Origin: Bacillota bacterium | GTDB taxonomy: Bacteria > Bacillota > Dethiobacteria > Dethiobacterales > Dethiobacteraceae | Reading direction: 5' to 3' | DNA: 64,000 bases | Assembly (NCBI GenBank): GCA_018725565.1 | Contig: QLUR01000002.1 | Coordinates: forward strand, 1-64,000 | Shown: positions 26,130 to 29,883 of the stretch, piece after piece | How positions within the stretch are numbered: position 1 is the first letter of the stretch | Layout of the letters: each line of letters begins with the position of its first letter | Notes under the pieces: model-generated | Told to the model about the DNA's origin: nothing | Seen by the model: the letters and a program-made list of their open reading frames with translations, nothing else | Database searches by the model: none | Program-made: the position numbers and the translations under genes

Positions 26130-26876
26130 ATGCTAAACGAAATTGCAAAATTAATCCGTCAAAGCCGCCGTTGTTTTGCGCTGACGGGAGCCGGCATTTC
26201 CACGGAAAGCGGGATTCCGGACTTTCGCTCTCCCGGGACAGGGCTTTGGGAAACAATGGATCCATTAAAGTACGCTACTGCCGAGGTGTTGAGGGATAAT
26301 CCGGAACAGTTCTGGCAGTATGGTTTTGCCCGATTTAAGAACTTGTTTGCTGCACAACCTAACAGCGGGCATCTGGCGCTGGCCCAGCTGGAGGAACTTG
26401 GAATGCTGCAGGGGCTGATTACCCAAAATATTGATAATCTTCATTTTCTTGCTGGTTCACGGCGGCTGTACGAGGTTCACGGCCATACCCGCTCCTGCCG
26501 CTGCACGCGCTGCCAGGCTGTTTATCCGTTCAACGAGTTATTGAGGCAGCTGGACGGTGAGATCATTCCCCCGCTGTGCAGTGTTTGCGGCAAGCCTTTG
26601 CGTCCAAACGTCGTGCTCTTCGGCGATGCCATGTCTGAAGACTACTTCCTGGCTTTGGACGACCTCTCTGCCGGATGTGACCTGATGCTGGTTGTCGGCA
26701 CCAGTCTTGCCGTCTACCCTGTAGCAGACCTGCCGCGGTTTGCCGAAAAGCTGGTCATTATCAACTTGCAGCCCACCCCCCTTGACCGGCAGGCGCAATT
26801 TGTGGTGCGTGAAAAAACGGGAGCGGTGTTAAGCGGGATTGCAGCGGCCCTGAAAAATCCGGACAGCGGGGGATGA
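26130..26876 (+). CDS. cobB: NAD-dependent protein deacylase (sirtuin)
   Basis: Removes acyl groups from protein lysines using NAD. The 248 residues carry LTGAGISTESGIPDFRSPG near residue 17, TQNIDNLH, the catalytic His in EVHGHTRS, four zinc cysteines (CRCTRC-type pair and CSVCGKPL), and VVGTSLAVYPVADLP. Full length. Start ATG 26130 behind GGGAGGG. The stop overlaps the next gene (ATGA), so it is coupled to an FtsA-like protein, which makes that protein or the downstream protease a possible partner or substrate. Confidence 0.95.
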   Translation: MLNEIAKLIRQSRRCFALTGAGISTESGIPDFRSPGTGLWETMDPLKYATAEVLRDNPEQFWQYGFARFKNLFAAQPNSGHLALAQLEELGMLQGLITQNIDNLHFLAGSRRLYEVHGHTRSCRCTRCQAVYPFNELLRQLDGEIIPPLCSVCGKPLRPNVVLFGDAMSEDYFLALDDLSAGCDLMLVVGTSLAVYPVADLPRFAEKLVIINLQPTPLDRQAQFVVREKTGAVLSGIAAALKNPDSGG

Positions 26877-29023
26877 GGATGGAAGCGGGCAATAAACATC
26901 TGCTGGCCCTTGACATCGGCACCCGCAAAGTTACCGGGTTGCTGCTCGATATATCTGCGGGCGGCAGGCGGATTATGGCCATAGAAACACAGGAGCACCG
27001 GACGCGGGCCATGCTGGACGGGCAAATACAAGATATTCCCAAAGTAGCGGAAGTAGTGAGCCAAGTCCGTTCCAGGCTTGAACTGCAGGCCGGCGGCCCG
27101 CTGCAGGCGGCAGCCGTGGCGGCAGCCGGCCGCATGCTTTGCACCATGCGCGGCAAGGTCAGTCACCGGGTTGATTCTTCTAAGCGCTTGCAGGAACAGG
27201 ACATCCTGCAACTGGAGTATGCCGCTGTCCTTGAAGCGCAGCAACAACTGCTTTCCGCACCTGGCGGCAAACGTCCCTTCACGGAACAGTTTCATTGTGT
27301 CGGGTTCAGTGTTTCCGGCTACTTTCTGGATGAGGCACCTATCGGCAACCTGCTTGGCCAGCAAGGCTCTCTGGCTAGCTGCGAAGTAATCGCCACCTTC
27401 CTGCCAAGAGTGGTGGTAGACTCTTTGCGCGGTGTGCTTGACGCGGCGGGCCTTCGCCTGCAGAGCCTTACGCTGGAACCGATTGCCGCCCTGCGCATGG
27501 TTGTTCCTGAAACCATGCGCAAGCTTAATCTGGCTTTAGTTGACGTAGGGGCAGGAACTTCCGACATTGCCATTACCCGCGAGGGTACTGCTATTGCTTA
27601 TGATATGGTGCCGCTGGCCGGCGACGAAATCACAGAATCCCTGTGTCAGTGCATTTTGCTGGACTTTATGACTGCCGAAGCGTTGAAAAGGAAACTGGCG
27701 AGAAGCACCAGGGTAACATTCAAGAATATTTTAGGCAAAAAAATAACTCTTACAGCCGCAGAAGTCCGGGAAGCATTGACACCGGTGCTCGATGAACTGG
27801 GGCAAAAGATTGCCGCTGCTATTCTCCGTCATAACGGCACCGCTCCACAGGCCGTTTTTTGCGTCGGCGGCGGCAGCCTTTTACCCGGTCTGCCTGAGAC
27901 GATTGCCAGGTATTTGGGGCTTGACCCGGCAAAAGTGAGTGTCAAAGGCAAAGAGATGATCAGTTTGCTGCCGTGCTCGCCAAGGCAATACCGGGGGCCG
28001 GAACTGGTTACGCCGCTGGGTATCGCTTACACTGCTTTGCAGCGGGAAGCCCTGCATTTTTGGCGTGTTTCTGTCAACGGGCAAAATATTGATGTCATGG
28101 ATCTGGGCCGCGGTACAGTGGCCGATGCTTTGCTGGCGGCCGGCATCGGTCCCCGCGAACTGGTTGGCAGATTTGGCGCCGGCGCCAGTATAGAGGTAAA
28201 CGGCCAGTTGCTTACTTTCCCCGGAGAAAGGGGAGAGCCGGCCCGCATTACAGTCAACGGCTTGCCTTCTTCATTAGATGCCAGGATCAGCCAGGGGGAT
28301 GAGATTACCTGTCAGCCGGGAAAAGACGGGGCCTCCGCCAGGGTCAGCGTTACTGAGCTCCTGTCCAGGCTGACTCCTATTAGTATCCGTCTGAACGGTA
28401 CATGGTACCGGCTGGCACCGCCGGTCTATCGTGGCGGCCGCCTGCTGGCGGCTGACGCCTGGCTCCGTGACAGGGACAAGTTGCGTGTTCTGAAAACAGT
28501 GCCGCTTTCATGGGTGCTGGAGCAATTAAACCTTGCACAGGAACTGGACGGCGGGACAATTAAGGTCAGGGTAAACGGTACGGAACGGGAAGTGCCTTAC
28601 GGGCCAAAAACGATCAGGGTAAACGGCCGGGCGGCCGTCCGCGACACGCCCGTTTGCGAAGGCGATTTGCTCGAAACCTGTTTTGACGGTTCTTACCCTA
28701 CGGTCAGCAGCCTGACAGAGAACAAACCGGCGCAAATTAAATTGCAGGTCAACGGGGCGCCGCTGCCGGTGCCGGTCAGAGAAATCTTTTTTCTCAGGAA
28801 TGGGCGTGACGTGCCGGCTGAGGCGCCGCTTAACGACGGCGACCAGGTGGAAATAAGGGAAGAGGTCCATGAGATTACGGTTGCCGACCTCCTGAACCTG
28901 ATAGAATGGCAAAGCAAACCGCCGTCCGGCAGCAACCGCCTTGTCCTGCTGCTTAACGGCCGCGACGCGCAGTTTACCACTGCTGTTAAAGACGGTGATC
29001 AGTTTAAAGTTGGCTGGGCATGA
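26873..29023 (+). CDS. FtsA/PilM-like actin-fold protein with a long repetitive beta-rich C-terminus
   Basis: Residues 1-395 form an FtsA/PilM-type actin ATPase: phosphate-1 loop LLALDIGTRKVTGLLLD, phosphate-2 LALVDVGAGTSDIAI, the adenosine loop VFCVGGGSLLPGLPE, and an FtsA-specific 1C-like insert. Residues about 396-716 are unlike FtsA: nine occurrences of hydrophobic-x-V/L-N-G (near 400, 439, 459, 504, 565, 581, 623, 639 and 690), with segments closing in GDE, GDLL, GDQV or GDQF. I read these as several tandem beta-grasp-like modules (MoaD/ThiS or SLBB-like), an inference. It lacks the C-terminal amphipathic membrane helix of cell-division FtsA. Coupled to the sirtuin upstream; the protease gene follows 17 bases later. 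Function unknown. Confidence 0.85.
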   Translation: MRMEAGNKHLLALDIGTRKVTGLLLDISAGGRRIMAIETQEHRTRAMLDGQIQDIPKVAEVVSQVRSRLELQAGGPLQAAAVAAAGRMLCTMRGKVSHRVDSSKRLQEQDILQLEYAAVLEAQQQLLSAPGGKRPFTEQFHCVGFSVSGYFLDEAPIGNLLGQQGSLASCEVIATFLPRVVVDSLRGVLDAAGLRLQSLTLEPIAALRMVVPETMRKLNLALVDVGAGTSDIAITREGTAIAYDMVPLAGDEITESLCQCILLDFMTAEALKRKLARSTRVTFKNILGKKITLTAAEVREALTPVLDELGQKIAAAILRHNGTAPQAVFCVGGGSLLPGLPETIARYLGLDPAKVSVKGKEMISLLPCSPRQYRGPELVTPLGIAYTALQREALHFWRVSVNGQNIDVMDLGRGTVADALLAAGIGPRELVGRFGAGASIEVNGQLLTFPGERGEPARITVNGLPSSLDARISQGDEITCQPGKDGASARVSVTELLSRLTPISIRLNGTWYRLAPPVYRGGRLLAADAWLRDRDKLRVLKTVPLSWVLEQLNLAQELDGGTIKVRVNGTEREVPYGPKTIRVNGRAAVRDTPVCEGDLLETCFDGSYPTVSSLTENKPAQIKLQVNGAPLPVPVREIFFLRNGRDVPAEAPLNDGDQVEIREEVHEITVADLLNLIEWQSKPPSGSNRLVLLLNGRDAQFTTAVKDGDQFKVGWA

Positions 29024-29040: not shown

Positions 29041-29883
29041 GTGGAATTTGATTTTTTCCAGCTTTTATGGTTGTTTTTGATTTTTTCTGCTTTAACTCCG
29101 ATGTTTAAACAGGCGCGGCTGGAGGCCGCCCGTATCCGCCTGATTCGCGAACTGGAACGCAAACGGGGAACCAGAGTCATTACCATCATTCACCGCCAGG
29201 AATCGCTTTCACTGCTTGGCATCCCGCTGACCAAATTTATTAATATTGAGGATTCCGAACAGGTGCTGCGTGCTATCCGGCTCACGCCGCTGGACATGCC
29301 TATCGACTTGCTGCTGCACACGCCAGGCGGGCTGGTACTGGCTTCAGAGCAGATTGCTCACGCCATAAAGAACCACCAGGCCAAGGTAACGGTTTTTGTC
29401 CCCCATTATGCCATGTCGGGCGGCACTCTTATTGCTTTGGCTGCCGATGAGATTGTAATGGACGGCAACGCGGTGCTTGGTCCGGTTGACCCGCAAATCG
29501 GGCGTTTTCCCGCTGTATCGATACTTAAGGCTGTAAAAGCCAAGGATGTCAATGAACTGGATGATGAAACGCTGATTCTTGGAGATGTGGCGGAAAAGGC
29601 GATCAGACAGGTGAAAAGCACGGTGACAGAGATTCTCGTCGAAAAGCTGGGGGAGGAAAAAGCCCTTGAGGTTGCCGTCCAGCTGACCGAGGGGCAATGG
29701 ACCCACGATCATCCCATTACTTGCCGGGAGCTGTCCGCTATGGGGCTGATTGCCTGCGGAATTTTGCCCAAAGAAATTTACGAACTGATGGATCAGTACC
29801 CCCAGCCGCTGCGCAGCCGTTTGTCGGTCCAGTACATCCCGGTACCTTACGAAAAACCGGGCAGGGGGAACAAGTCGGGCTGA
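29041..29883 (+). CDS. Membrane-anchored Clp-fold serine protease (SDH_sah family)
   Basis: A 280-residue protein of the SDH-type serine proteinase family related to SppA and ClpP. It has an N-terminal membrane helix (about 5-22; FFQLLWLFLIFSALTPMF), then the crotonase/Clp fold with PIDLLLHTPGGLVLASEQIA, the probable nucleophile Ser in HYAMSGGTLIALAADEIVM near residue 125, and DPQIGRFPAVS. Expected to cleave membrane or membrane-proximal proteins from the cytosolic side. GTG 29041 follows AAAGGAAGG. Last gene of the sirtuin / FtsA-like / protease operon. Confidence 0.9.
   Translation: MEFDFFQLLWLFLIFSALTPMFKQARLEAARIRLIRELERKRGTRVITIIHRQESLSLLGIPLTKFINIEDSEQVLRAIRLTPLDMPIDLLLHTPGGLVLASEQIAHAIKNHQAKVTVFVPHYAMSGGTLIALAADEIVMDGNAVLGPVDPQIGRFPAVSILKAVKAKDVNELDDETLILGDVAEKAIRQVKSTVTEILVEKLGEEKALEVAVQLTEGQWTHDHPITCRELSAMGLIACGILPKEIYELMDQYPQPLRSRLSVQYIPVPYEKPGRGNKSG

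Follow-up and report, generated by a model that had tools for sequence, protein, structure and literature searches.

Only a few classes of bacterial actin-like proteins are known, each of which organizes a central process in the cell: division, shape, plasmid segregation or magnetosomes. FtsA (TIGR01174/PF14450) and PilM (TIGR01175/PF11104) share a fold that includes a 1C domain, and both work by self-association or by the reading of short peptides through the 1C side; FtsA additionally ends in a membrane-targeting helix, which PilM lacks. A separate set of described proteins is built on the β-grasp fold, in which the canonical order of elements is a hairpin, then a helix, then the last strands. 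This class includes the MoaD/ThiS, TGS, Ub-Mut7C and SLBB domains, and bacterial multi-ubiquitin proteins (structures 9cd2, 9d5a and 8u38) carry several ubiquitin-like domains per chain; these multi-ubiquitin proteins are not known to bear an actin-like ATPase. A survey of the β-grasp fold (PMC1949818) reports tandem and circularly permuted versions and, among the terms searched, mentions neither interlocking nor fusion to an actin-like ATPase.

The protein described here, which we name UBL-FtsA, is encoded in a window of 64,000 nucleotides from a Bacillota bacterium (the whole stretch of DNA that was analysed) and combines an FtsA-type ATPase half with a C-terminal rod of β-grasp domains. Its gene is closely packed between two others: the stop codon of the upstream deacylase gene overlaps its start codon by 4 bp, and the downstream protease gene begins 17 bp past its stop.

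26130..26876, + strand: upstream neighbour, SIR2-family NAD-dependent protein deacylase (Pfam/family profiles)
26873..29023, + strand: UBL-FtsA gene, 716 codons (open reading frame)
26873..28036, + strand: FtsA-type actin-fold ATPase with 1C (SHS2) domain, residues 1-388 (TIGR01174, Foldseek, motifs)
29041..29883, + strand: downstream neighbour, SDH-type ClpP-fold serine proteinase (NF047768, 413 bits)

PADLOC returned no match for the UBL-FtsA gene or for either flanking gene. Relatives align with UBL-FtsA over its full length, with 57-60% identity for the nearest and about 35-44% across Bacillota. The searched open-access literature yielded no paper on this family, an absence that is not proof, and the family was not found in papers on sporulation genes and OLE-RNA-correlated proteins (PMC3533761, PMC11332333). 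The components are each of a known kind, and it is their combination and the interleaved chain that appear to be new.

The ATPase half and its relationship to FtsA and PilM

Examination of residues 1-388 reveals the phosphate 1 (D14-x-GTR), phosphate 2 (D224-x-GAGTSD) and adenosine (GGGS, residues 332-335) motifs of an actin-fold ATPase. Given that these three motifs are kept in 185-194 of the 194 family members, ATP binding is very likely retained by UBL-FtsA and by its family. The FtsA profile TIGR01174 matches with 79.1 bits over model positions 2-344 (74-119 bits in relatives), and its equivalog cut-off of 175.85 bits is not reached by UBL-FtsA; the curated cut-off of the PilM profile TIGR01175 (54.2 bits against 133) and that of the EutJ model are likewise missed. 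A full-length AlphaFold model was obtained with a pLDDT of 91.5. In Foldseek searches the ATPase half finds FtsA structures foremost (E. coli 7q6d, TMt 0.82; T. maritima 1e4g, TMt 0.83; 0.76-0.83 overall, across about 400 columns), with alignments that pass through the FtsA-specific 1C domain, followed by PilM (2ych, TMt 0.78), with EutJ and MreB lower. Together these observations strongly support a complete FtsA-type ATPase with subdomains in the order 1A, 1C, 2A, 2B. The initial annotation had named a complete FtsA-type ATPase domain from the letters alone. It had also noted that the membrane helix of FtsA is missing, and in the full-length model the C-terminus is indeed a strand and not an amphipathic membrane-targeting helix; furthermore, no transmembrane or signal-like segment was found in UBL-FtsA (maximum 19-residue hydropathy 1.38).

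A canonical ftsA gene immediately adjacent to ftsZ lies on a different contig from UBL-FtsA, and the genome further contains two MreB-type genes and a PilM match on contig C13. The UBL-FtsA gene itself is neither beside ftsZ nor in a pilM-pilN-pilO operon, its neighbours being the SIR2 and SDH protease genes. As ftsA beside ftsZ, MreB and PilM are thus all present in addition, sequence comparison identifies UBL-FtsA as a separate FtsA/PilM-type paralogue. Its identity to genuine FtsA is about 25%, and in a phylogenetic tree the family is split from FtsA with a support of 98-99%. The fast-evolving PilM sequences fall among the UBL sequences in this tree, on a long branch, and UBL forms one group in 51% of bootstrap trees, a result that does not fix the branching order of UBL-FtsA and PilM. 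The tree replaced a smaller one in which PilM was represented by too few sequences, some of them doubtful.

PilM being the next best structural match after FtsA, and likewise devoid of a membrane helix, UBL-FtsA might be a PilM-like partner of an envelope machine, namely a cytosolic ATP sensor that binds the N-terminal peptide of a membrane protein and uses its rod as a spacer. However, the genome has its own PilM elsewhere, pilus genes were not recognized next to UBL-FtsA in the loci inspected, and the TIGR01175 score is below the cut-off for that family; we consider this role improbable.

Composition and element order of the C-terminal rod

The chain continues after the ATPase half with the rod, residues 396-716 (28058-29020), in agreement with the span of 28060-29023 first given for a C-terminal extension of the 716-residue protein. 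The nine recurring hydrophobic-x-V/L-NG motifs reported for this extension are borne out: the pattern [hydrophobic]-x-[VLIR]-NG occurs exactly nine times, at residues 399, 440, 459, 505, 565, 581, 624, 640 and 692, and in 10,000 shuffles of residues 396-716 it turns up 0.2 times on average and at most four times. Each unit also has one closing motif, namely GDE (476), RDK (535), GDLL (598), GDQV (657) and GDQF (709), all of which except RDK had been listed before. The nine NG turns comprise five hairpin turns and four of the five turns between the last strands, the second unit having GG at this position. In profile comparison the five units match one another with probabilities of 97-99%, the lowest being 96.7%, and controls with shuffled columns stay at 10% or below.

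The extension matches the Pfam families ThiS (PF02597; 48.1 bits against a gathering threshold of 22.5, 1.7e-12) and Ub-Mut7C (PF14451; 36.8 bits against 23, 3.8e-9), and among 99 family members ThiS is matched in 71, Ub-Mut7C in 52 and TGS in 42. An AlphaFold model of the rod, built from the 99-sequence alignment (pLDDT 95.2, pTM 0.71), contains five hairpins, five helices and five sets of last strands, and therefore five β-grasp domains; a pTM of only about 0.7 means that prediction does not fix how the ATPase is placed against the rod or how stiff the rod is. In Foldseek searches the only fold matches of the rod with E below 1e-3 are multi-ubiquitin structures, but their whole-chain superposition is poor (TMt 0.18-0.22), and Multi_ubiq (PF14452) is matched in one of 99 family members and not in UBL-FtsA of the window. 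These lines of evidence strongly support a rod of five homologous β-grasp domains of the ThiS/TGS type, with repeated domains throughout the model and no match to one single characterized domain. Of the earlier suggestion of about four tandem modules of MoaD/ThiS or SLBB type, the repeated β-grasp character and the MoaD/ThiS affinity hold, while the count becomes five and the simple tandem gives way to an apparently interleaved series. The SLBB alternative is not supported, with no SLBB Pfam match in UBL-FtsA or in any of the 99 family members and no secretion signal in UBL-FtsA. A PDB-sequence profile search with the rod gave only two matches, neither of which was accepted as homology: a match to the S4-type protein YabO (E 0.0076), which reflects a generic NG...GD turn, and a weak S-layer match.

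The predicted elements of the rod are listed below, abbreviated as hp (β-hairpin with an NG turn), h (helix) and b (strand-turn-strand set ending in GDxI).

28049..28108, + strand: hp1, first hairpin of domain 1, residues 393-412 (AlphaFold DSSP; VSVNG motif)
28109..28165, + strand: h1, helix of domain 1, residues 413-431 (DSSP)
28175..28228, + strand: hp2, first hairpin of domain 2, residues 435-452, probably inside domain 1 (DSSP; coevolution with b2)
28238..28321, + strand: b1, last strands of domain 1 (VNG...GDE), residues 456-483 (DSSP; coupling A419-I472 with h1)
28334..28369, + strand: h2, helix of domain 2, residues 488-499 (DSSP; couplings V493-V518 and L496-L531 with b2)
28370..28420, + strand: hp3, first hairpin of domain 3, residues 500-516 (DSSP; no coupling with b2 above Z 3)
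28421..28495, + strand: b2, last strands of domain 2 (GG...RDK), residues 517-541 (DSSP; unit homology)
28496..28546, + strand: h3, helix of domain 3, residues 542-558 (DSSP)
28547..28606, + strand: hp4, first hairpin of domain 4, residues 559-578 (DSSP)
28607..28687, + strand: b3, last strands of domain 3 (VNG...GDLL), residues 579-605 (DSSP; unit homology)
28688..28720, + strand: h4, short helix of domain 4, residues 606-616 (DSSP)
28721..28774, + strand: hp5, first hairpin of domain 5, residues 617-634 (DSSP; contiguous with h5-b5 in linker-bearing relatives)
28775..28870, + strand: b4, last strands of domain 4 (RNG...GDQV), residues 635-666, holding the Ub-Mut7C/MoaD match (Pfam, DSSP, unit homology)
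28871..28927, + strand: h5, helix of domain 5, residues 667-685 (DSSP; best Pfam ThiS stretch 662-710)
28934..29020, + strand: b5, last strands of domain 5 (NGRDAQFTTAVKDGDQFKVGW), residues 688-716, no terminal GG (Pfam, DSSP)

The order of elements assigned by DSSP is hp1 h1 hp2 b1 h2 hp3 b2 h3 hp4 b3 h4 hp5 b4 h5 b5, an arrangement (INTERLEAVING) that always places hairpin i+1 between helix i and last strands i. We strongly infer that the domains of the rod are threaded into one another, since the element order, the fold match, coevolution and natural variants all point the same way. As for the fold match, the 64-residue TGS domain 3hvz superposes on the rod model with a TMt of 0.73 and an rmsd of 2.2 Å across 93 alignment columns; the roughly 29 gap columns are the size of one inserted hairpin and hence support interleaving.

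With 99 sequences, coevolution over the whole chain gave too much noise to be read directly, and we therefore pooled the signal by unit and used a set of 194 sequences for the first two domains (effective number 166, a modest depth). In the latter, hp2 and b2 are coupled despite the intervening b1, h2 and hp3 (E441-K536, Z 5.5; V442-L531, 5.0; P450-D535, 4.3; I440-L537, 3.9), and no coupling above Z 3 links hp3 to b2, though hp3 directly precedes it. No coupling above Z 3 was seen between hp1 and b1 in this set either. When pooled over the domains of the 99-sequence set, the signal between hairpin i and last strands i is 4.4, against 2.8 between hairpin i+1 and last strands i. Among natural variants, the last domain is a contiguous run of hairpin, helix and last strands in linker-bearing relatives (L062, L044, L014, L223). 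Chains of 3, 4 or 5 domains correspond to extensions of about 200, 270 or 330 residues, and in the members read by eye they finish with a helix and last strands and have no spare hairpin. We rejected an alternative parse, in which each domain would be permuted to the order helix, next hairpin, last strands, as it orphans hp1 and the last helix-strand set and also predicts the hp3:b2 coupling, which is absent; the interleaved parse is favoured because it alone leaves no element unpaired.

Proposed function

In light of these features, we consider it rather probable that UBL-FtsA is an FtsA paralogue with five interleaved ThiS-like domains that serves as a cytosolic, ATP-gated scaffold. By analogy with its relatives, a scaffold function with a partner-binding rod is the most likely one that we can infer. 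In the manner of FtsA and PilM, the ATPase would either associate with itself or dock a short peptide of a partner next to its 1C domain, and the chain of five interleaved domains, which stands directly after the ATPase and would replace the membrane-targeting helix of FtsA, could project from it as a rod that keeps one or several partner proteins at a defined distance. The number of domains would set that distance, and interleaving would make the rod mechanically continuous. Both polymerization and partner binding are proposed for UBL-FtsA as analogies.

Unlike MoaD/ThiS carriers, the family has its β-grasp domains in a putatively interleaved series fused to an actin-like ATPase, and a C-terminal GG occurs in one of 194 members, UBL-FtsA itself terminating in GWA. 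As this GG is lacking, UBL-FtsA would be neither a sulfur carrier nor a protein modifier. Given the lack of a transmembrane or signal-like segment, contact with the cell wall is also unlikely, and a cytosolic protein or polymer is a possible partner for the rod.

More tentatively, UBL-FtsA could represent an undescribed class of bacterial actin-fold proteins, in which a chain of β-grasp domains that cannot be detached from one another forms a rod of 3-5 domains on a polymerizing ATPase, and which is encoded by roughly half of the genomes sampled in the phylum and is the only FtsA-family protein in many. In such an architecture, which would itself be undescribed, the first hairpin of each domain would be made before the preceding domain closes. 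If the interleaved chain is confirmed, its domains are joined so that separation needs unfolding, which would be useful for load-bearing rods, and ubiquitin-like folds would serve as building material outside conjugation. This widespread and apparently uncharacterized family could represent a novel type of scaffold protein in bacteria.

Distribution and genomic context

Of 398 genomes sampled from the phylum, 215 (54%) carry UBL-FtsA at E below 1e-50. Among the 60 nearest genomes, full-length versions are encoded by part of the window's own family and by several further genomes. A single-protein scan of named genomes found nothing, and an alignment query was therefore used for these; it recovered carriers in Brevibacillus, Anoxybacillus, Niallia, Halalkalibacter, Heliobacterium, Desulfosporosinus, Sporomusa and Ruminiclostridium. 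These data strongly support a distinct family spread through Bacillota.

Canonical FtsA occurs in 134 of the 215 carriers and in 81 of the 183 non-carriers, a mild positive association (odds ratio 2.1), and was not found in the remaining 81 carriers. Because this phylum-wide scan had been limited to a handful of top candidates per genome, we searched 18 FtsA-less carriers, many of them single-contig assemblies, a second time and scored all candidates. UBL-FtsA proved the sole FtsA-family protein in 16 of the 18, where the remaining matches are of MreB length and cover only the second half of the model; the other two have a short FtsA. A further FtsA-derived family in 54% of the sampled genomes of a phylum, often as the sole FtsA-type protein, would be a sizeable gap in what is described. 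Regardless of UBL-FtsA, canonical FtsA escaped detection at this threshold in 183 of the 398 sampled genomes; a role of SepF as FtsZ anchor would be consistent with that.

The FtsA-less carriers, the 1C topology of the ATPase and the FtsZ-tail-like or amphipathic peptide at the end of two homologues (L153, L154) would fit UBL-FtsA as a replacement or second tether of FtsZ, doing the division-ring job of FtsA with a rod in place of the membrane helix. We regard this as unlikely: UBL-FtsA of the window ends in a strand, with neither a membrane helix nor a transmembrane segment, its own genome has ftsA next to ftsZ, the association between the two proteins runs opposite to that expected of replacement, and SepF, which also anchors FtsZ, occurs in each of the 21 genomes that were checked for it. 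UBL-FtsA is not simply the FtsA of these cells, because it coexists with FtsA, has no anchor and shows no compensatory distribution.

SpoIVA is commoner in carriers (196 of 215) than in non-carriers (139 of 183; odds ratio 3.3, not corrected for phylogeny), the window's own genome has it, and a coat-F gene lies nearby in some lineages, all of which might point to a protein of spore formation. This has a low probability in our estimate, as 19 carriers lack SpoIVA, including all sampled f35 carriers, and 139 genomes with SpoIVA lack UBL-FtsA.

The neighbourhood of the gene suggests yet another role, in which the rod, akin to ubiquitin, would present clients to a protease such as the SDH-type ClpP-fold protease encoded downstream. 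The two genes lie side by side in the same orientation in the window and in two further loci (L146, L147), but this adjacency is confined to close relatives in the window's family and other inspected lineages have different neighbours, making such delivery highly improbable. The scaffold reading that we prefer draws no support from genomic context, as no operon conserved throughout the family was found among the loci inspected. In Bacillaceae, UBL-FtsA lies between a DAHP synthase gene and a BrxC/YtxH/DUF948/Mur-ligase group, and elsewhere the neighbours differ.

Several further observations concern individual lineages and loci. In Bacillaceae loci such as L084, L074 and L132 the homologue adjoins brxC (ytxJ) and ytxH, and the Foldseek results also included 9a51, a PDB model of a B. 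subtilis Mbl-YtxH crosslink, a possible hint at a link to the actin-like protein Mbl. The two homologues with an unusual C-terminus (L153 and L154, from genomes G087 and G322; 866 and 877 residues) carry a Pro/Ala-rich tail after the five units, ending VRKSI(S/A)DFIRRD, which resembles the FtsZ C-terminal peptide or a short amphipathic helix. In seven loci (L117, L118, L123, L072, L082, L094, L119) the next gene downstream of the homologue codes for a protein that clusters with a GGDEF (diguanylate cyclase) protein; it is co-directional in three clostridial loci and convergent in the other four. Genes of a single cluster, whose representative has a 3D domain (PF06725), recur near the homologue in several lineages (L150, L152, L157, L158, L162 and L079). 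Finally, twelve phage-labelled metagenomic records in a phage collection (e.g. MT835546, MT835512) match UBL-FtsA, six of them over at least 80% of its length at about 30% identity; these may be bacterial contigs or prophage-borne copies.
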